Part shown: in pieces, positions 14,108 through 38,985 of the stretch | How positions within the stretch are numbered: the stretch's first letter is position 1 | How the letters are laid out: each line of letters begins with the position of its first letter | Assembly: GCA_003697125.1 (NCBI GenBank) | Contig: RFGB01000037.1 | Span: forward strand, 1 to 38,985 | Source of the DNA: Alphaproteobacteria bacterium | GTDB taxonomy: Bacteria; Pseudomonadota; Alphaproteobacteria; Rhodobacterales; Rhodobacteraceae | Direction: 5' to 3' | Length of the DNA: 38,985 nt | Notes under the pieces: model-generated | Told to the model about the DNA's origin: nothing | What the model saw: the letters and a program-made list of their open reading frames with translations, nothing else | Databases searched by the model: none | Made by a program: the position numbers and the translations under genes

Positions 14108-17100
14108 TCAGACGAAGTTCAGCACATCGGCCGCCTGCAGCGCATACAGCGCCGAGGATTCGTCGAAGATGTAGAACTTCCCGTCCGGGTCATAGGGGGT
14201 GACGCTGTCGGTGGTCACCGATTCCAGCGTCTCGACCGAGGCCCAGTTGCCCGTCGCCTCCAGCGGCGCGTTGAAGCGGCCATGCACGTCGCCGCCGAAC
14301 TGGGACTGGAAGGCCGCAATGGTGGCCGCGGCGCCGGCGGTGGCGAACTGGCCGTCGGACAGCAGCACGATCTGGTTGTCGTCGGACAGGTCCGCGCCGA
14401 TGTCGGTGAACCACGCCAGCGCCTCGGCCAGCCCGGCATTCACGTCCGAATCGCCGGCGCCACCCTGCTGGAACACCAGGCCCTGGCCGGCGCCCCAGGC
14501 CTGGAGGCTGGCGTCCCCCGTCCAGTTCACCGCCGCGATCGCCGCGTCGTCGAAGCCGATCAGCCCCACCTTCAGCTGATACCCCGCCGCGGCGGCGGCC
14601 GCCTCGAAATTGGCGATCGCCTGCGACACCGCGTAATAGGCGAGGTCGAAGCTGGAATTCGCCACGCCGTCGCCGTTGATGTCGCCCACCGGCAGGCCGG
14701 ACAGGTTGTCGACCATCATCGAGGAGGAGACATCGACCACGAAGGCGACATTGATGGTGGGGCCGCCCCCTTCCCCGCCCCCGCCGGGGCCGTCCTCGCC
14801 GATCACGTCGATGGTGACATCGGCCAGCGACTGCGCCCCGTGCGCGTCGGCGATGACATAGCTCAGCTGCACGGTGTCCTTCTCGCCCGCGTTCAGGCTG
14901 GCGAAATCCCCGCCCGGGGTGAACAGGAAGGAGCCGTCGCTGGCCACGCTCAGCGTGCCGGTGCGCCCGCCGGCCGAGGTGACGGTCCAGCTGTCGCCGA
15001 TCGCGCCGAGGCTGGTGCCCCCCTGGCGCACCTCGACCACATGGATCGAATCGCCATTGGGGTCGCTGTCCACCCCCGCGCCGGTGTCGTCGGTGATCAG
15101 GTTGCCGGCCAGGGTCGCCGATTCGGCCACGTCATAGTCGTTGTCGGTGGCCTGGGGCGGGTCGTTCAACCCGTCGATCACGATCTTCAGCTGCGCGGTG
15201 GCGGTGGCGCCATGGCTGTCGGCGATCTGGTAGTCGACCGTGAATTCCGCCACGTCGAAGCGGCCCATTGCCCCGAAGCCCGCCCCGGGAGTGAAGCTGT
15301 AGGCGCCGTTGGCCGCCACCGTCAGCGTGCCCGACAGCGCGACCCCCTGGGCGCTGGTGGTCGACAGCGCGATCTGGCTGCCCGGGGCCATGCCGCCCGC
15401 GGCGATCACCGCGATCGGGTCCTGGGCATAGCCGTCATGGTTGGGATCGCTGTCATTGGCCAGCACATTGCCGAGGATCAGCGTGGCGGCCTCGGTGGTG
15501 CGGTTGGTGTCGTCGCGCGCCACCGGCGCCTCGTTCAGCCCGGTCAGGGTGACGGAGAGCGTCGCGTCGTCGGTCGCCCCCCAAGCGTCGGCGATCCGGT
15601 AGCCGACCGAGAAGACCACGGTCTCGCCCTCGGCCATCGCGGTCATGCCCGCGCCGGGCACCAGGCTGTAGCTGCCATCGGCCGCGACCGTCAGGGTGGC
15701 GCCGACCGTGCGGCCCAGCGAGGTGGTCGCCGACAGCGCCAGCGCCGTTCCCGCCGCCTGCCCGCCGGCGGCGATCACCGAGATCGCGTCGCCATTGGGA
15801 TCGGAGTCGTTGGCCAGCACATTGCCGGTGACCGCCGCGGCGGCCTCGGTGTCGAAGGCCGCGTCATCCTCGGCCGCGGGCGGCTCGTTCAGCCCGTTCA
15901 CCTGGACCGTCACCGTGGCGGCGGACTGGTCGCCATCGTCATCCTCGATGGTATAGGCGATCTGGAAGCTGCGCGATTCGCCCTGGCCAAGGGCGCGGAA
16001 TCCCGCGCCGGGCGTCACGGTCAGCGTTCCGTCGGGCTGCAGGGTGAAGCTGGCATCCAGCCCGTCATCCGTGGTCAGGGTGAAGGGGGTGCCGTCGGCG
16101 CTGCCGCCATCCACCGCGACGATGCGGATCGCGCCGTCCCCGGCGGTGTCGTTCGCCAGGATGTTCAGGCTGGCCTCGGTCGCCTCGTCGGTCACCAGAA
16201 GATCGTCGGCCGCCACCGGCAGAAGGTCGACCCCCTCTCCGTTGATGACCACATCGACGAAGGCGGTGTCGCTGACCGTCTCGCCGGCCACGGTCTGCTG
16301 GAAGGTCATCCCGGCGATGGCGCCCGAGCCCTGCAGCGTGACGGTCATCGTCTTCACCCCGGCCACGCCCACCGCCATGTCGGCCATGCCGCCATTGGCG
16401 GTGACGGGGCCGGTCATCTCGGCGATCAGGTTGCCCGATTCGTCATAGAAGCGCAGCAGGGGGCTCGGCTCCTCGGTATCGAGGAAGGTCATCTGCTCGA
16501 CCGTGGCCGGGCTGTCGAAGGTGAAGGTGAAGGTGCCCCCGCAGGCATTGTCGTCGGGGTCGGAGGAGTCGAAATCCTCGGTGATGATCAGCACCCCGCC
16601 CTGGCCGGGCTGGTGCAGATCCCAGTCCCCGCCGGTGGGATGGTCCGCGTCGAAGATCATCGCGGCATTCTCGCCCGAATGACCGGCGCGGACCGCCGAG
16701 ATCGTCACCCCCTCGATCTGGTTCGAGACGATGGTCCCCGCGGCGAGATCGGGGCCGTCGAAATCGACGACGCGGGTCTGCGTGGTCTGGGTCGAGGCGG
16801 TGACGGTATAGGCCAGGCGGAAGCTGTCGGTCTGGCCGTCCTCGAGGTCGAGGAAGCTGTCCCCGCCGTCGAAGGTGAAGCTGCCATCGGCGTTCACCGT
16901 GACGGTTCCGGTGCGCCCGCCGGCGGTGGTGACGGTGAAGCTCTCGCCCACGGGCGCCGTGATCTGGCCATCCGCACCGACCACCGCCAGCGCGGTCACG
17001 CTCAGCGCGCCGGGGGCGGCCGGCAGGCCGTTCAGCAGGTCATCGGCGATGATGTTGTCGGCGATGTCCTCGGCCTCGCCCACCGAATAGCCATTGTCCA

Positions 17101-19258
17101 GGGCGTCGACCCGGATCGATTCGCCCAGCACGGTGACGGTGACGGTGGCGCTGTCGGTCAGCACCCCCGCGACCGGCGTGGCGCTGCCGCCCAGCTTCAG
17201 CGAGCCGCAGCGCGCGCCGCCCTCGGGCCCGACGCTGGTCACGCGCAGGCCGAAATCCTTTCCCGCGAGCAGGTCGAGCGTCAGCGCCTGGCTGGCATGG
17301 CTCAGCGTGAAGCTGGTCTGGCGGATGTCGTCGGGGCTCGCCCCGGGGGTGCCGAATTCGACCCCGACATCGAAGGCGCCGAAGCCGCCATTCATGTTGG
17401 CGCCATTGCCCAGGCTGATGACCCCATTGGCCGACGCCTGTACCTCGGTCACGTCCGCGCCCGAGATCGTCAGCCCCGGCAGCAGCGATTCGTCGGCGAT
17501 GTGGAAGAACAGCGCGCGCAGATCGCCGATCGCGCCGCCGTCGTTCAGCACCTCGACATCGAACTGCAGGCTGCCATTGACCTCGGTCACCGTGGCGCGG
17601 GCATCGAAGCCGCCCGCGCCCGAGAAGCGCACCACCAGCCCGCCGCCGGCATCGTCGGGGGCCTCGATGGTGTAGTCGAAGCTGACCTGGGCCGACTGCC
17701 CTTCGGTCAGCGCGTCGAAATCGCCATCGGCGTCGAAGTCGAAGCTGCCATCGGCATTCAGCTTCACCCGCCCGCCGCCGGCCAGGTCGACCCACTGCCC
17801 GATGCCGGCGGCCTCTCCGTTGATCCGCACCACGGTGCCGGCGGCCAGCGCGGGCAGGCTGTCATTGTCCAGCACATTGCCGTCGGTATCGCCGGCGCCT
17901 TCGCTCTCCAGCACGGTGATGGCGTCATCCACCGCATCCAGGGCCAGCCCCTCGCCATCGATCACCACGGTGACCACCGCGGTGTCGGAGACCCCGTCGG
18001 CGGTGACGGTGTATTCCAGCTGGAAGCTGTCGCTCTGCCCCTCGCGCAGGTCGCGGAAGGATTCGCCGCCATCGAAGGTGAAGCTGCCATCGGCATTCAC
18101 GGTCACCGTGGCGGTGCGCCCGCCCGAGGTGATGACGGTGAAGGCCTGCCCCACCGCGCCGGCGCCGGCATTCTCGGCCCCAAGCGCCGAGACGGCGGTG
18201 ACCTGCAGATCCGCGGCCCCGAGGATGCCGCCCTTCAGGTCATTGGCGATGATGTTGTCGGCGACCTGCGCATCCTCGCCCAGCCGGTAGGTGTCATCGA
18301 CGGCGTCGACGGTGATCGGCACCGGATCGCCGCCGCCCGCGGGCTGGGCGGTGATCACCACATTGTCGATGGCGATCTTCTCGGCGCAGCTGGAGAAGTC
18401 GGAGACGATGCGCAGCTGCGCGGCGGTGACGCCCTGGGGCAGGGCATAGCTGAGCCCGGACAGCCCGCCGCCGGTGATGGTCTGGCCGGTGATCGATCCG
18501 GTCAGCGTGCGGCCCCAGCCGGTGAACATGTCCAGAAGATGGACATTGCCGTCCTGGTCCACGATCTCGATGCGCAGCATGTCGCCGTAGCGGGTGCCCC
18601 AGGCCTCGAAGCTTCCCCCGGCTATCTTGGCGTCGAGCGTGAGGCTGGCGCCGTCGGTGCCGGTCAGATCGACGGTGGCGAAGACCAGCTTGCCCTCGCG
18701 CCCGCCCTGGAATTCGGCCTGGCCGTTCTTGCCCTTGACGCGCACCGCATCGACGATGTCAGGGGAATCCTCCAGGTTGCGACCGACCGAGAACGCCTCC
18801 TCGAGGAGCACGGCGCTGCCGCCCGCGGGGCCCGCATCACCCTCGGACAGGGTCGCGGTGCGGGTGAACTCGATCTTGTCGATGCGGACATATTCGTTGC
18901 CGTCCTTGTAGGCGCGCAGCTGGATCTCGGCGCCCTGGGGGATGCGGATCCCGTCCAGCGTGAATTCGCTGAAGCCGCCATTGTTCGAGCCGGCACCGTC
19001 ATCATCCTTATCGAGGATGATCGAACCGACCACCTGCCCGTCGATCAGCAGCTCGATGACCGACTGGCCGTCATTCTCGTCCTGGACGAAGATCGAGACG
19101 GTGAAATAGCCGCCATCCTCCAGCATGCTGCCGGTCAGGCTGCCGGTCTCGCCACGGATCTTCACCAGCTGGCCACCCGAGGCCTGGCTGCCGTTCACGA
19201 CCATGAAATTGTCGAGAACCAGATCCTCGGCTTCATAGACGATCGTCTGACTGGTCAT
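14108..19258 (-). CDS. Large putative secreted/adhesin-like protein: CBM-like N-terminus, multiple cadherin/VCBS-like Ig repeats, C-terminal VWA domain
   Basis: 1716 aa; N-term [14 protein letters not shown]...[27 protein letters not shown] resembles a CBM6/35/36 jelly-roll; repeated (V)AADD/[14 protein letters not shown]...[19 protein letters not shown] units; [19 protein letters not shown] and [11 protein letters not shown]; no N-terminal signal peptide seen; acidic composition; C-terminus ...ADVLNFV. Confidence 0.85.
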
Positions 19259-32390: not shown

Positions 32391-32951
32391 ATGATCCGCC
32401 TGATCCGTCCGGCCGCGATGCTTCTGGGCCTGTGCGCGGCGCTGGCCCCGGTGGGCGGGCTTGCCGGCTGCCCGCCCGCCGCCGACCGCGGGGCGGAACG
32501 GGCGGAGCTTCTGGCCGGGCTTGCCGCCGCGCCCGACGAGGAATCGGCCCGGGCGCTGGCCGACCGGCTGTGGCGGCTGTGGACCACCGCGCCCGATCCC
32601 CTCTCGCAGGAATGGCTCGACGAGGGCATGGACCGCATCCGCATGGCGGATTATGCGATGGCCGAGCGGATCCTGACCGAGCTGATCGCTTGGTGTCCCG
32701 GTTTCGCCGAAGCCTGGAACCAGCGCGCCTTTGCCCGCTTCCTGAAGGGCGACATGGAAGGGTCGCTGGCCGATATCGCGCGAACGCTGGCGCTGGAGCC
32801 GGCGCATTTCGGGGCGCTGTCGGGCAGGTTCCACGTGCTGATGGCGCTGGGTCGGCCGGCCGAGGCGCGCGCGGCGCTGCGCGCGGCGCTGGGCATCCAT
32901 CCCTGGCTGGTCGAACGCCATCTGCTCGCCCCGCCGGGGCGCGAGCTGTAA
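32391..32951 (+). CDS. TPR-like putative lipoprotein
   Basis: 186 aa; N-terminal hydrophobic segment with lipobox-like LAGC; TPR-like AFARFLKGDMEGSLADIARTLALEPAHFGALSGRFHVLMALGRPAEARAALRAAL. Confidence 0.8.
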   Translation: MIRLIRPAAMLLGLCAALAPVGGLAGCPPAADRGAERAELLAGLAAAPDEESARALADRLWRLWTTAPDPLSQEWLDEGMDRIRMADYAMAERILTELIAWCPGFAEAWNQRAFARFLKGDMEGSLADIARTLALEPAHFGALSGRFHVLMALGRPAEARAALRAALGIHPWLVERHLLAPPGREL

Positions 32952-32958: not shown

Positions 32959-33420
32959 TCAGCCGGCGAGACCGGCCAGCGTCTCGGCCAGCGCGCGGGT
33001 GTCGGCAAGCGTGCGGCGCAGGCTGTCCAGCCGTGCCGCCGGGTCGGGATCCTCGGCGCGGGCGGTGGTCACCGCCTCGACCCGGGCGGCCAGCTCGGGC
33101 GGGATCGGGCGGCCCTTGCGCTCGATCTCGTAGCGCAGCCGCAGCAGATCGCGCCGCGCATCGGCAAGCTCGCGGTCCAGCCGGGCGATCTCGGCCTCGA
33201 CGCGCGCGGTCTCCTCGGCCAGGGCGGCCTTCTCGCCCTCCAGCCTGCCGGTCTCCTCGCGCCCGGCGCTCACCCGCGCCTCGCGCTCGGCGATGCGCTT
33301 CTCGTAGGTGCCGTCCGAGATGTTCTTCAGCCCCGAGACGAAGCCGCCATCGCCCGGCCGTTCCGAGGTGGCGCAGGCGGCCAGAAGCAGGCCGACGATC
33401 GCGCATGCACGCATGGTCAC
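32959..33420 (-). CDS. Coiled-coil putative lipoprotein
   Basis: 153 aa from GTG (ATG 33414 is an alternative); M(TM)RACAIVGLLLAACATSERP lipobox LAAC; Glu/Arg-rich heptads; GTGA overlap with the upstream gene's stop. Confidence 0.8.
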   Translation of the reverse strand: MTMRACAIVGLLLAACATSERPGDGGFVSGLKNISDGTYEKRIAEREARVSAGREETGRLEGEKAALAEETARVEAEIARLDRELADARRDLLRLRYEIERKGRPIPPELAARVEAVTTARAEDPDPAARLDSLRRTLADTRALAETLAGLAG

Positions 33421-34085
33421 AGCTCCCGCGCCAGAAGTTCGGCGATCTCGCGCATCGCCCCGATGCGCGCGCGCAGGCGCTCCAGCCCGGGATCCAGCGG
33501 CGCGGTATCGCCGGCCGAGGCCTCGACCACCAGCAGCGTGCGCGCCTCGCCGAAGAACGCCTCGCGGCGGCTGGCGGCCTCGATCGCGCCCTCCATCTCG
33601 GCAAGGCTGCGCCGGGTGCGCGCGCGCTGGCGCTCCAGCGCCGCGGCATCGCGCCGCGCGGCGGCCAGGGCGGCGCGGCGCTCCTCCAGCACCTTCTGCA
33701 TGTCGGCGATGGTGGCGGTCAGCGCGGCGTTGGTCGCCTCGATGTCGCGCGCCACCGCCTCCAGGACCTCCTCGCGCGTGGCATATTCCCGTTGCAGCTG
33801 GGCGACATAGGCCCCCGCCCCGGCGCCCAGCAGCCGGCCGATCTGGGCGCCGCGGAAGGCGCCTTCGGTTCCGCCCAGAAGCCCGCCCACCACCGCGCCC
33901 AGCCCGAAGCCGGCCAGCGCGCCCTCGCCCACGGTCGCCTGCAGCGCCTCGGACTTCTCGCGCATCGCCCGCTCGGCCTCGGTGTCGGGCTCCCAGGTCA
34001 GGAAGCCGCCCTGGGTGCAGCCGCCGGCAAGCCCGGCCGCGATCAGCAGGGCAGTCAGGCGCCTGGCAGGAAGTCGGACAGCCAT
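33417..34085 (-). CDS. Glycine-zipper / coiled-coil putative lipoprotein
   Basis: 222 aa; LLIAAGLAGGCTQGG lipobox; GEGALAGFGLGAVVGGLLGGTEGAFRGAQIGRLLGAGAGAY glycine zipper; long coiled coil. Confidence 0.85.
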   Translation of the reverse strand: MAVRLPARRLTALLIAAGLAGGCTQGGFLTWEPDTEAERAMREKSEALQATVGEGALAGFGLGAVVGGLLGGTEGAFRGAQIGRLLGAGAGAYVAQLQREYATREEVLEAVARDIEATNAALTATIADMQKVLEERRAALAAARRDAAALERQRARTRRSLAEMEGAIEAASRREAFFGEARTLLVVEASAGDTAPLDPGLERLRARIGAMREIAELLAREL

Positions 34086-35671
34086 GTCAGGGTTCCTCTC
34101 GTGCCGTCATTGGCGGCCATCCGCACATGCTTCAGATACAGGCGGATGTCGCGTTCGGCCTCCTCGCCGAGGCCGGAAAGCCCGCGCGCGGCCTGATCGT
34201 CGATCCCCAGAAGGGCGGGGGTCATCAGCGCGTCGAAATGCCGGCCGGCGGTCTCGATCAGCTCGGCGTAATATTCGCGCGACTGGTCCAGCCGGGCCAG
34301 GACCTTGAACTGCGCGGCCTCGATGGCCTGAAGATCGGCCCGGGCCGGATCCAGCATGGCGCGCGCCCGGGGATCCTTCGCCGCCATGGCCTCGATCTCG
34401 GCATAGGTGGCGCGGGCGACCTCCAGCGCCTTGTCGATGCTGGCCAGGGCGACGATGTCCGTGCGGATGCGCTGGCCGAGCCGGGTGCCGAGGAAGACGT
34501 TGACGCGGGCCGCCTCGAGATAGAGCTGCCGCCCGTCGAAAGCGGCGGGGTCGCCGGACTGTGCGACATAGGCCTCGAGCCCGCGCTTGAGCTGCGCCTC
34601 TCCCGGCAGGCCGGGAAGTCGGGGCAGATAGCCCAGGGTCTGCAAGGCGGCATAGAGGCGGGCGTGGTCCTGCGCGGCGACGAATGCGGCGGCGTCGAAG
34701 CCCTGCGGCGGGCGGGGCCCGGCGGGCTCGCGCGCGAACCGGGCCAGCCTGCGTTCGGCGAAGTCGCGAAACAGCCCGTCGGGGAACTCCTCCAGATAGG
34801 CGCGATAGGGCCCGGGCTCCAGCGAACCCGACACCTCGCGCCAGCGGGCGACGTCGCGGTCGATCAGCGCGGCGAGGTTCTGCGGCGTGGGCTGGGTGTT
34901 CAGGTAATGCTCGCCCAGAACCGATTCCTCGACCCAGGGCACCTGCTGGCCGCCGGTCTTCAGCACCACCTGCTGGCGCACGCGGCCGAACATCAGCCGG
35001 ATCTCCAGCCCCGGGGTGGCGATGTGCTGCAGGAGCGCGGCGGTGAACACGCTGTTGTCGCCCGCCCCGTCATAGGCCACCGCGCCGGGATCGGTGGCAT
35101 AGGCGATCAGCAGGCCCGCCCCGCCCGAGCTGCGCCTGAGGCCGGGGCCATCGACGAAGCCGGCGCCCGCCCGGGTCAGCGGATTGTCGCGGCAGGCGTC
35201 GAGGATGATCACCCCCAGCTCGGGCCGGGCGGAACGGATCGCCGCCTGAACCTCGGACAGCGTCACCGCCGCGGCCTCGACCGCGCTGCGGCTCAGCTCG
35301 GCCAGGTCGCTGCCCAGCAGATAGTTCTCGCCCCCCGCCTGAACGCCATGGCCGGCATAGAAGAACAGCGCGATCTCGGCCCGGTCGGCCGCGGCGCGGA
35401 ACGCCTCCAGCGCCGCGCGCATGCCGGCGGCGTCGCGATCCTCGGCCCGGATCACCCGGAAGCCCAGACCGCCCAGCGCGGCGTCGAGCGCGCGGACATC
35501 GTTGACCGGATTCTTCAGCTGGAACTGGCTGTTGCGGTAATTCGCATTGCCGATCAGCAGCGCCACCCGCCCCGCCGCCTGGGCCGATGCCGCCAGCGCC
35601 AGGGCCACCAGCAGCGCCGCCAGCGCAAGGCCGGCAATGCGACGCGGCTGCTGGCGGGGGGCGGGGCGCAT
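34055..35671 (-). CDS. Exported caspase-like (peptidase C14) protein with long C-terminal helical region
   Basis: 538 aa; signal peptide ...LALAALLVALALAASAQAAG; RVALLIGNANY, FFYAGHGVQ (His), VIILDACRDNP (Cys). Confidence 0.92.
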   Translation of the reverse strand: MRPAPRQQPRRIAGLALAALLVALALAASAQAAGRVALLIGNANYRNSQFQLKNPVNDVRALDAALGGLGFRVIRAEDRDAAGMRAALEAFRAAADRAEIALFFYAGHGVQAGGENYLLGSDLAELSRSAVEAAAVTLSEVQAAIRSARPELGVIILDACRDNPLTRAGAGFVDGPGLRRSSGGAGLLIAYATDPGAVAYDGAGDNSVFTAALLQHIATPGLEIRLMFGRVRQQVVLKTGGQQVPWVEESVLGEHYLNTQPTPQNLAALIDRDVARWREVSGSLEPGPYRAYLEEFPDGLFRDFAERRLARFAREPAGPRPPQGFDAAAFVAAQDHARLYAALQTLGYLPRLPGLPGEAQLKRGLEAYVAQSGDPAAFDGRQLYLEAARVNVFLGTRLGQRIRTDIVALASIDKALEVARATYAEIEAMAAKDPRARAMLDPARADLQAIEAAQFKVLARLDQSREYYAELIETAGRHFDALMTPALLGIDDQAARGLSGLGEEAERDIRLYLKHVRMAANDGTRGTLTWLSDFLPGA

Positions 35672-36954
35672 CAGAACCGGTAGCCGAAATTCACCCGCAG
35701 GCCCTGATAATCCGAGCCCGAGGCGAAGGTGTAGGTGAGGCCGAGGCGGACCGAATCCCAGGTGAAGCCGTTGACCGAGTTCACCGTCCCGAACGAGATG
35801 GCGATGTCGGTGACGTTCTCGGCATAGAGATCGCTGCCGAAATAGCGTGTGTTGACGACCGAGGCTTCCCAGGTCGTGCCCTGCCCGAACAGCTTGAAGT
35901 CGAGCGGTCCGGACACAGCGATCCCGTTGCGCAGCACGACATTGTGCAGGTCGTAGTCGAAGCGGCTGCCGTCATAGCTGATCGGGAAGGTCTGGATATA
36001 GGCGACCGAATTGCCGATGGCGAAGTTCAGCTCGCCCGCGGTGAAGCGGTAATTCGAGGTGAGCGACACCGCCCCCAGCCCCGCCACCGTGCCCAGGTCG
36101 AACGACCCGACCAGCCCGCCCCGGATCGCCGGCGTCAGCGTCCAGTTGTCATAGAGCGGCAGCCGCACCCCCAGCCCCAGCGATCCGGAATAGGAATCCG
36201 CCCCCTCGAGGCGCACATAGGTGAAGGGTGCATCCACGATCACCGCATAGCGCGGATCGTCCAGCGGCATGGCATAGTTCAGCGGCAGGTCATAGACCTC
36301 GGCGTCGCGCCCCGCGGCCGAGAAGCGCCCGAAGCGGGCATTGATCGCGAAGCTGGCGCGGCTGCGGTCATAGCCGTCGCTGGCCGAGGCAACCTGGCTC
36401 GGCTCGGGCCCCACCGTGGTGCCCATGATGAAGTCGGCCTCGACCATCTTCGACATCAGGCTGTTCGGCGACCCGGCCACCGGGTCGAAGGGGGTGATGC
36501 GCACCGCCTCGCGCAACAGGCGCGTCGCCAGCGCATCCTCGTTGCGGCGCAGGAAGCGCTCCAGCGCATCCTCGTTCTGGGCGCGGGTGGCGTCGGGGGC
36601 GTCGAAGACCTCGACGAAGTCGATCGACGGGATGATGAACTCCACCCGCGACCCGGCGGTGGGATAGCTGACCACCGCATCGACGCCGCGGAAATTGACA
36701 TCGACCCGGGCCACCGATTTCGGGGTATAGGCGGGGTTGATCCGCTCATAGCCCGACCGGCGCAGGCTGTCGATCAGCGCATCGACATCGGGGAACCGGT
36801 CCGACCCGGTGATCGCCTCGTCATCCGTGAATACCGTGACCGTGGTGGTCAGAAGCCCGTCCGCGGCGCTGGCCGGGGACATCGCGAGGGCCGGAGCCAG
36901 CCCTGCCGCGGCCAGTGCGGCCCGCAGCCTGCGCAGAGGCGACCTTGTGAGCAT
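35671..36954 (-). CDS. Predicted outer-membrane beta-barrel protein
   Basis: 427 aa; signal peptide MLTRSPLRRLRAALAAAGLAPALAMSPASAAD; alternating aromatic beta-strands in the C-terminal half; terminal ...QGLRVNFGYRF. Confidence 0.85.
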   Translation of the reverse strand: MLTRSPLRRLRAALAAAGLAPALAMSPASAADGLLTTTVTVFTDDEAITGSDRFPDVDALIDSLRRSGYERINPAYTPKSVARVDVNFRGVDAVVSYPTAGSRVEFIIPSIDFVEVFDAPDATRAQNEDALERFLRRNEDALATRLLREAVRITPFDPVAGSPNSLMSKMVEADFIMGTTVGPEPSQVASASDGYDRSRASFAINARFGRFSAAGRDAEVYDLPLNYAMPLDDPRYAVIVDAPFTYVRLEGADSYSGSLGLGVRLPLYDNWTLTPAIRGGLVGSFDLGTVAGLGAVSLTSNYRFTAGELNFAIGNSVAYIQTFPISYDGSRFDYDLHNVVLRNGIAVSGPLDFKLFGQGTTWEASVVNTRYFGSDLYAENVTDIAISFGTVNSVNGFTWDSVRLGLTYTFASGSDYQGLRVNFGYRF

Positions 36955-37058
36955 CGGCCCTCCCAACCCGCAGCGTTTCCTGCCTGTCCTGCCCCTGCGA
37001 CGATCAGGCATATCGCCCCGAAACGCAAGCCTTTCGCGCCGGCGCTTCGGCCCGCGGA

Positions 37059-37868
37059 TCAGATCTGCCCCAGCCGGCGCCACTGCTCCAGCTTCTCCCG
37101 GCTCACCTCGAAATGCATCGAATCCTCGCGCGCGAAGCCCGCCCCCCAGTACCAGCCCTCCTTCTGGAAGAAGTCGGCCAGGAGCGTCAGCCCCAGCTGG
37201 GTCTTGCCGTCGCCCAGCGTGTCCAGCACCCCGTCGATGTTGAGGTCCACCGCCAGCCCGTAGGCATGGGCCGAGGCGGAATCGTGGCTGCCGCGCACCT
37301 TGCGCACGCACAGCGATCCCGAACCCTGGATGCGGGCATAGAGCGCGGGCTCGTAGACCTGGACATTGCGGAACACCTGCCTTAGCGAGGCGATGGCCGG
37401 GCGCAGCATGTGCACTTTGATCGGCCCGACATCCTCCAGCGACAGGAGCTCGAGAAGCTTCGGGTTGGTCATCGGCTGGCATTCGTCGGTCAGATCCTCG
37501 CGCGGCAGGCCGAGCAGCTCCTCGAGAAACTCCGCCGAGGCGTGGGTGAGACCCGCATTGACCGAGCGGCGGCCGGCGATCAGCACCACCTTGGCGAAGC
37601 TGTCCGCAAGGCTGTCGGTCGCGGCCGGCGGGTCGGGCTGATCCTGGCGCATGGCCGGCGCCGGTCCGTCCCGGGCCAGCCGCGCCTCCAGCCCGGCCAC
37701 CCGCGCGGCCAGGCTGTCGACCTCGGCCTGAAGCCGCGCAAGCTCGGCGGCGCTGGCCGGCGGCTCGGCCGGCGCGGCGGGGCGCAGCGACCGCGCGGCC
37801 AGATACCAGCCCAGCGGCGCGGTCAGCGCCGCCACCGCCACCAGCGCGATCAGGATGCCCTGCCGCAT
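37059..37868 (-). CDS. Membrane-anchored M15-like (D-Ala-D-Ala carboxypeptidase / LAS-type) peptidase
   Basis: 269 aa; N-terminal TM then coiled coil; SASAHAYGLAVDLNIDG and WYWGAGFAREDSMHFEVS match HxxxxAxD ... ExxHxE/S-type zinc motifs. Confidence 0.82.
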   Translation of the reverse strand: MRQGILIALVAVAALTAPLGWYLAARSLRPAAPAEPPASAAELARLQAEVDSLAARVAGLEARLARDGPAPAMRQDQPDPPAATDSLADSFAKVVLIAGRRSVNAGLTHASAEFLEELLGLPREDLTDECQPMTNPKLLELLSLEDVGPIKVHMLRPAIASLRQVFRNVQVYEPALYARIQGSGSLCVRKVRGSHDSASAHAYGLAVDLNIDGVLDTLGDGKTQLGLTLLADFFQKEGWYWGAGFAREDSMHFEVSREKLEQWRRLGQI

Positions 37869-38087
37869 GCGCGCTTCCCGTTCCGGACCTGCCGCATGGC
37901 CATGGGCCCGAGCCTAGCCCGGACGCCGGGGCGCTGTCGAGCGGTTCCGCCCGCCGCCCGGCCACGGCCGGGACGGGGTGCGAAGACGGCTTCCGCTGGC
38001 GCGCGACCTGCTGCTATCCTCGCCGCCGCGAACGGGGCGGGGCCGGACCGGGCGCGGGCTCACGCGCGGCAAAGCGGGAGGACGGCA

Positions 38088-38985
38088 TTGGCGGCAGATC
38101 AACCGGGGGGCACCCTCAGGCCCGGCGAGATTCTCAACAACACCTATGTCATCGAGGAGCTGGTCGCGGTGGGCGGCACCGGCGAGGTCTACCGCGCGCG
38201 CAACCGCGCCTCGGACCGCGAGATCGCGGTGAAGATCCTGCGGCGGGAATTTGCCGGCAACGAGACCTTCCTCGACCTGATGCGGCGCGAGGCCTCGGTC
38301 CTGCACGAGGTGCAGGACGACGCGGTGGTGCGCTACTACGACATCCTGCAATCCGATGCCCATGGCGGCTTCGTGTTCCTGGTGATGGAATTCATCCGCG
38401 GCGAGTCGCTGGCCGAGCGGATGCGCCGCGGCCCGCTGGACGAGGAGACCTGCCTGACCATCGCCCGGCGCATCGCCCGCGGGCTGAAGGCCAGCCATGA
38501 CAAGAAGGCCTATCACCGCGACCTTTCGCCCGACAACGTGATCTTGCGCAATGGCGACCCGGCGCAGGCGGTGCTGATCGATTTCGGCATCGCCAAGGAT
38601 GTCAGCGAGGATGCGCGCACCGTGATCGGCGGCGGATTCGCCGGCAAGTATCAGTATGCCGCGCCCGAGCAGCTGGACGGCCGGGCCGACGGACGCTCGG
38701 ACCTCTACGCCCTGGGCATGACCCTGATCGGGGCGTTCCGCGGCCGGGCGCCCCATGCGGGGGCCAGCTATCTCGACATCATCCGCGCCAAGGCCGAGAA
38801 GCCCGACATCGCCGACCTTCCCGACCGGCTGCGCGCGCTGGTCGACCGGCTGGTGGAACCCGACCCCGACCGCCGCCTGCAGACGCCTGCCGAGGTGCTG
38901 GCCTTCCTCGACAGCATCGCCGGCGGCGCCGCCCCGCCCGGCCCGCCGCCGCCCGCGCAGCGGCGGACCGCCGCGCCCGGTCCCG
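38088..38985 (+). CDS. Serine/threonine protein kinase, 3' end outside window
   Basis: Read by hand from TTG 38088 (SD GGGAGGA): LAADQPGGTLRPGEILNNTYVIEELVAVGGTGEVYRARNRASDREIAVKILRREF...VMEFIRGESLAERM...HRDLSPDNVILRNGD...LIDFGIAKDVS...YAAPEQLDGRADGRSDLYALGMTLIGAFRG; then a Pro-rich segment at the window edge. Confidence 0.9.
   Translation, partial: MAADQPGGTLRPGEILNNTYVIEELVAVGGTGEVYRARNRASDREIAVKILRREFAGNETFLDLMRREASVLHEVQDDAVVRYYDILQSDAHGGFVFLVMEFIRGESLAERMRRGPLDEETCLTIARRIARGLKASHDKKAYHRDLSPDNVILRNGDPAQAVLIDFGIAKDVSEDARTVIGGGFAGKYQYAAPEQLDGRADGRSDLYALGMTLIGAFRGRAPHAGASYLDIIRAKAEKPDIADLPDRLRALVDRLVEPDPDRRLQTPAEVLAFLDSIAGGAAPPGPPPPAQRRTAAPGP

Follow-up and report, generated by a model that had tools for sequence, protein, structure and literature searches.

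What does a caspase that carries a signal peptide do in a bacterial envelope, when it is encoded with a β-barrel, two lipoproteins, a cell wall peptidase, and a Ser/Thr kinase? The question is raised by one end of contig RFGB01000037.1 (assembly GCA_003697125.1, Alphaproteobacteria, Rhodobacteraceae), here called C126. The whole of this contig, 38,985 nucleotides, is the window that was analyzed; the genome amounts to 3.5 Mb in 315 contigs. A preliminary description had put forward the genes at 32959-38985 as a candidate new envelope system. The view of an independent system had to be abandoned, since the kinase gene heads a type VI secretion system (T6SS) cluster, and kinase, M15 peptidase, and T6SS genes recur elsewhere beside the caspase and the two lipoproteins (below, the triad). 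As judged from sequence, the window genes are very probably the envelope and regulatory arm of this T6SS.

The first part of the answer came from the end of the contig. The kinase gene starts with TTG and is represented in the window by its N-terminal 299 codons (38088-38985, forward strand); as C126 is the entire window, the gene is interrupted by the contig end and not by a stop codon. The last 26 nucleotides of C126 are identical to the first 26 nucleotides of contig C26, on the same strand, and this 26-mer has two occurrences in the genome in total, at the C126 end and the C26 start. The kinase frame continues unbroken across the junction, with no internal stop, up to base 1285 of C26. The joined product of 718 amino acids comprises a kinase domain (residues 21-266), a single transmembrane (TM) segment, a BON-like stretch (431-460), and a DUF4384 domain (596-679) as assigned by Pfam. 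An N-terminal kinase, one TM segment, and a C terminus predicted from sequence to be periplasmic constitute the architecture of PpkA. The protein is indeed a Ser/Thr kinase, as first described (PF00069, 1.5e-37), and is not a stand-alone one, being truncated by the contig end and encoded by the first gene of the T6SS cluster on C26. Downstream of it, C26 encodes an OmpA-domain protein, TssA, TssB, TssC, Hcp, ImpE, TssE, TssF, TssG, and ClpV, followed by a 398-amino-acid family-less protein, an ion channel, VgrG, a DUF6931 protein, and an FHA protein. TssL, TssM, TagF, and a PP2C phosphatase (PppA) are encoded on contig C75. An overlap between the ends of C26 and C75 was sought and none was found, so that the T6SS lies on three contigs, of which C126 and C26 alone are joined. 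Because the kinase gene is contiguous with the T6SS genes on C26, the module first described is the divergent arm of the T6SS cluster.

Some further genes of these clusters deserve mention. The 398-amino-acid protein (L121:13129-14325, forward strand) has no match in Pfam; in NCBIfam it weakly resembles a subunit of an alpha-pore-forming protein (E 0.001), at a score well short of the cut-off. The Ion_trans channel-like gene of the window genome (L121:14383-15276, forward strand) has a homolog with 57% identity that adjoins clpV in genome G138 (L187:9259-10107, reverse strand). A giant TssB-TssC fusion is encoded in many of these T6SS islands; in G138 its gene (L187:4278-9266, reverse strand) lies between the ion-channel gene and vgrG, and the product has 1662 amino acids, residues 10-157 matching PF05591 and residues 1307-1589 PF05943. 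No second TssC match was obtained in the window genome.

On the other side of the divergent intergenic region that separates the M15 and kinase genes (37869-38087), all the genes of the arm lie on the reverse strand. The exported C14 caspase (type A, or caspase A; 34055-35671; PF00656, 3.6e-38) has a predicted signal peptide, a p20 domain with H108 and C160, and a helical C-terminal region. It is followed by lipoprotein 1 (33417-34085), which has a lipobox, a glycine zipper, and a coiled coil, and by lipoprotein 2, which has a lipobox, a conserved DPAxGGFFxGVSGIxxGxYDxRI motif, and a coiled coil and extends over 32959-33420 with a GTG start or 32959-33414 with an ATG start at 33414. The barrel and caspase genes overlap by 1 nucleotide, those of the caspase and lipoprotein 1 by 31, and those of the two lipoproteins by 4 (GTGA); these overlaps, the open reading frames, and the caspase motifs YAGHG and DACRDNP had been described correctly, as sequence and Pfam analysis confirmed. 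The barrel and both lipoproteins lacked a convincing Pfam family match. The AlphaFold2 model of the caspase (mean pLDDT, 85) consists of the p20 domain and the helical C-terminal region, which ends in a long helical hairpin (380-478) with helices of about 50 residues. Its nearest solved folds in Foldseek were the MALT1 paracaspase and then caspase-7, a match that suggests, as far as a model can, cleavage after Arg or Lys. A p20 fold with a His-Cys dyad, evident from PF00656, an alignment of 26 sequences, and the MALT1 match, identifies the protein as a C14 caspase/paracaspase.

Is this arrangement particular to the window? Full-length caspase orthologs (39-65% identity) were found at 25 further loci, in Rhodobacteraceae or in metagenome bins filed with Rhodobacteraceae or only as Alphaproteobacteria. 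Of the 26 loci, 22 have lipoprotein 1 after the caspase and 22 to 24 have lipoprotein 2, with order and strand constant wherever they occur. The predicted export and the intact dyad, both noted at the outset, hold in all the orthologs: a hydrophobic N-terminal segment stands directly before RVALL in 26/26 caspases, and H108 and C160 are invariant in their alignment. A lipobox is present in every lipoprotein 1 (22/22) and lipoprotein 2 (23/23) sequence examined. By this comparison, the caspase and lipoproteins 1 and 2 are a conserved core unit. A class-wide search found caspase A in no genome but the window's own, so that it seems confined to the family.

The neighborhood survey that the preliminary description had called for thus bore out the triad and, in part, its surroundings. 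A full-length kinase ortholog (34-48% identity, about 700 amino acids) lies near six other caspase A loci and an M15 gene near five. Core T6SS genes were found in the flanks of six loci (L034, L038, L043, L112, L113, and L114): in L038, L113, and L114 the caspase is accompanied by M15, PpkA, an OmpA-domain protein, PppA, TagF, and TssM, and in L112 and L034 by TssA/B/C. The barrel (35671-36954), which has an N-terminal alpha/beta domain and ends in YRF, fared differently. It was found in 3 of 298 family genomes, in all of which it immediately precedes the caspase, so that of the coupled unit first proposed, running from the barrel to lipoprotein 2, the caspase and lipoproteins stand as co-conserved and the barrel is a clade-specific add-on. 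That it is a barrel is supported by an AlphaFold2 model of low confidence (pLDDT, 68), which shows some 12 long strands and for which Foldseek gave outer membrane barrels (TamA, autotransporters, and others) as all of the best matches in the PDB; a sequence search against the PDB returned noise only, and the low-confidence model identifies no barrel family. The M15_4 peptidase (37059-37868; PF13539, 7e-11) has an N-terminal membrane anchor and the motifs SxHxxGxAxD and DxxHFE; PF13539 together with a membrane anchor, within a T6SS cluster, marks it as a putative TagX-type hydrolase.

Two other genes of the window and one group of loci may be recorded here. Convergent with lipoprotein 2 is the gene of a TPR-repeat protein that has a hydrophobic segment at its N terminus (32391-32951, forward strand); it was not found beside the caspase at other loci. 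A protein of 1716 amino acids (14108-19258, reverse strand) contains repeats of the cadherin-like and bacterial Ig kinds and, towards its C terminus, a VWA-like stretch. In some Ruegeria genomes (L044, L050, and L051) the triad has two additional caspases and an OmpA-domain protein beside it, along with a very large protein belonging to a cluster; one member of that cluster (L118:10068-14339) has a TPS secretion domain.

We then determined how closely the caspase and the T6SS go together. The family sample comprised 298 genomes, of which 72 had TssC. In it, a profile (A4) built from the C-terminal region of the caspase gave 12 full matches (261-367 bits), a single partial one at 159 bits, and a tail at about 50 bits. 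tssC was present in 12/12 caspase A genomes versus 60/286 others (Fisher p = 1.9e-8), and also in 20/20 genomes behind a separate set of further caspase A loci. Five genomes being common to both sets by coordinates, this makes 27/27 distinct genomes with tssC; on these counts, full-length caspase A is found only in T6SS-bearing genomes. For caspases in general, the first 150 genomes gave a match (E of about 1e-20 or better) in about 50, comprising 29/34 genomes with tssC versus 21/116 without it (p=9e-13), and a caspase lay within 12 kb at 15/36 tssC loci, where 0.5 was expected and the maximum in 100,000 simulations was 5. The species are related, and the p-values therefore overstate independence; the direction of the caspase-T6SS association is clear in spite of these over-optimistic tests.

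These figures bear on two other explanations of the locus. Caspases might simply be common in the family and have landed by the T6SS by chance, as their occurrence in a third or so of the genomes could suggest; given the excess of caspases near tssC, a spacing that is repeatedly 7-9 kb, and the presence of tssC in all caspase A genomes, we regard this as hardly credible. The second is a free-standing system for envelope stress, lysis, or release, in line with the preliminary description, which had considered programmed lysis or regulated release. The barrel, M15 enzyme, caspase, and lipoproteins have matching envelope locations, and in some genomes the triad is apart from the T6SS cluster. Against this, the kinase is contiguous with that cluster, full-length caspase A occurs only with tssC, the barrel is absent from 295/298 genomes, and no lysis gene (e.g., a holin) was recognized in the operon. 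Such a system is very unlikely, and no sign of a role in lysis or release was seen.

How, then, might the triad serve the T6SS? The gene linkage, the predicted export, the intact dyad, and the co-occurrence with tssC are established at the level of sequence. PpkA, PppA, TagF, and Fha are present, no TagR or TagST was seen in the segments read, and the triad lies beside PpkA; for these reasons we propose that the triad acts upstream of PpkA. The reading that we favor, and to which we give somewhat better than an even chance, is that a periplasmic caspase tethered to the outer membrane stands upstream of PpkA-Fha in place of TagQRST. Lipoproteins 1 and 2 would sit in the outer membrane and keep the caspase in the periplasm, probably by coiled-coil contacts with its helical C-terminal hairpin. 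Envelope damage or T6SS assembly would release or activate the caspase, which would then cut a periplasmic target, most likely the kinase itself, in its BON/DUF4384 region, or a protein that holds the kinase in check. PpkA would phosphorylate Fha and so bring about T6SS assembly, with reversal by PppA and TagF; the M15 enzyme would open the cell wall for the membrane complex, and the caspase triad would take the role that TagQRST has in Pseudomonas aeruginosa. Two more specific parts of this proposal are put forward with less assurance. That the caspase signals to PpkA is a tentative suggestion, and that it is the trigger of T6SS firing, an outer membrane-tethered protease that senses envelope damage and activates PpkA-Fha by limited proteolysis, is rather doubtful.

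Several observations weigh against the proposal, besides the relatedness of the species already mentioned. Genome G243, in which the C terminus of caspase A is truncated (the 159-bit partial match), has no tssC. The triad stands at a distance from the T6SS cluster in many genomes of Ruegeria and in some others, where neither a kinase nor an M15 gene lies within 10 kb. The genes assigned on C26, in the T6SS portion of C75, and in the arm within the window include no TagR (FGE) or TagST; this negative covers the segments read and not a possible gap between C26 and C75, and functional replacement of TagQRST is a guess. The similarity of lipoprotein 1 to TagQ also has its limits. The NCBIfam TagQ model NF041250 matches 20/22 lipoprotein 1 proteins (best, 3.2e-10), far under its 300-bit cut-off, and in hhalign lipoprotein 1 gave an E value of 4e-10 against a profile of six TagQ proteins passing the cut-off and 7e-9 against a single TagQ, versus 3.6e-5 against a generic glycine-zipper lipoprotein. 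The similarity comprises the lipobox, the glycine zipper, and the start of the coiled coil, and the model also matches in 241/399 Pseudomonadota genomes, 6 of them above the cut-off. A strong assignment of lipoprotein 1 to the TagQ family was dropped after this control search, because of which the sequence kinship is rated as suggestive only.

The main rival is a servicing role, in which the triad is an outer membrane-tethered protease that removes used or wrongly assembled periplasmic components (TssJ-L-M, the TagX-like enzyme) or recycles them, to allow the apparatus to be rebuilt. It draws on the same caspase-T6SS association data, and exported caspases are also found at T6SS loci whose head arm has ExbB/ExbD and BON/DUF4384 proteins and no kinase; PpkA is hence not the constant partner, a part that falls to the DUF4384/BON protein and the OmpA-domain protein. 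The regulatory genes speak against it: the caspase has PpkA as its neighbor in the window and at six further loci, mostly together with an OmpA-domain protein. Caspases are, moreover, mostly enzymes of limited proteolysis and not degradative ones. On balance we consider servicing unlikely, if still to be reckoned with. We regard as less probable still, and indeed improbable, that the caspase protects its producer by destroying incoming effectors in the periplasm or that it processes the producer's own effectors. An exported (predicted) and T6SS-linked caspase would suit this, and caspase-like processing peptidases or toxin domains occur in polymorphic toxins (PMC3482391). The known processing versions, however, sit inside toxin polypeptides, whereas the present caspase is exported as a protein of its own and goes together with two lipoproteins; nothing recognizable as an effector-immunity pair lies next to it.

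A second caspase type (type B), with a different C-terminal region, is encoded 7-9 kb from TssC and divergently from TssA in the ten genomes inspected. Its neighbors in the head arms (L125-L136) are an OmpA/YceI-domain protein, a BON/DUF4384 protein, two ExbD proteins, and one ExbB; the domains were determined in L129, and the other genomes were judged by like-sized genes. ExbB/ExbD beside this exported caspase look as if a proton-driven envelope motor belonged with it. The C-terminal region of type B (alignment A7) has a conserved CxxCH (consensus, TCSNCHEW), which has the form of a c-type heme site. The repeat W....s.....F..YL..FP.G.F...A of the caspase C-terminal region is found in type B caspases as well and recurs, often twice, in proteins of about 560 amino acids in about 150 genomes; it is probably a general helical repeat.

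It remains to compare the proposed arm, with its OM-tethered caspase (OM, outer membrane) upstream of PpkA-Fha, with what is known. Known anti-phage caspase modules may be taken first. The PADLOC caspase model gave a weak match to p20 only (1.1e-9), and no defense partner genes were found with the caspase by PADLOC; the protein is predicted to be periplasmic and lacks the sensor and effector partners of those systems. The preliminary description was right to set it apart from them, given its setting with a peptidoglycan peptidase and a kinase. Matches of the kinase to PD-T4-6 and MAD6 in PADLOC were rejected as generic kinase homology. Bacterial orthocaspases and paracaspases (C14) share the p20 fold and the His-Cys dyad, MALT1 being the nearest solved fold, but differ from the present protein, which is exported (by prediction), has a family-specific helical C-terminal region, and is linked to a T6SS. 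A 2012 survey of prokaryotic caspase homologs names secretion once, among the less common operon functions (PMC3501461), and in the open-access literature searched, subscription papers and preprints being outside the scope, we found no link between a bacterial caspase homolog and T6SS control.

Among T6SS proteins, TagX of Acinetobacter is a membrane-anchored L,D-endopeptidase acting on peptidoglycan (PF13539; PMC5061870). The M15 protein resembles it in PF13539, the membrane anchor, and its encoding with a T6SS; it differs in that TagX has two TM segments, while this putative hydrolase has a coiled coil and a single TM segment, at its N terminus. TssW of Acidovorax citrulli (PMC12607579) is alike by description, as an exported OM protein on the PpkA-Fha axis that is encoded with ppkA and fha, and differs in that a caspase is unmentioned in the TssW paper. 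A further comparison is with the TagQRST-PpkA-PppA-Fha pathway of the P. aeruginosa H1-T6SS, in which OM damage is relayed by TagQRST to PpkA, leading to Fha phosphorylation and T6SS assembly (PMC11881912); in Agrobacterium, PpkA is present and TagQRST is absent (PMC3953482). Common to this pathway and the present locus are a TM kinase of the PpkA type, a PP2C phosphatase, TagF, and an FHA protein encoded with the T6SS, as well as a glycine-zipper lipoprotein. The differences are the caspase and the second lipoprotein found here and the BON-like/DUF4384 periplasmic part of the kinase. What appears to be new is a T6SS envelope and regulation arm that carries a caspase predicted to be exported. 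Its partnership with the T6SS, which recurs in many marine and related bacteria, points to a protease as a participant in the control or upkeep of this weapon and offers a testable candidate role for exported bacterial caspases; being conserved, the caspase is also a concrete candidate for PpkA activation or attack sensing in T6SS bacteria without TagQRST. If it were the trigger, retaliation would be a proteolytic decision, and Rhodobacteraceae would possess a proteolysis-based counterpart of TagQRST.

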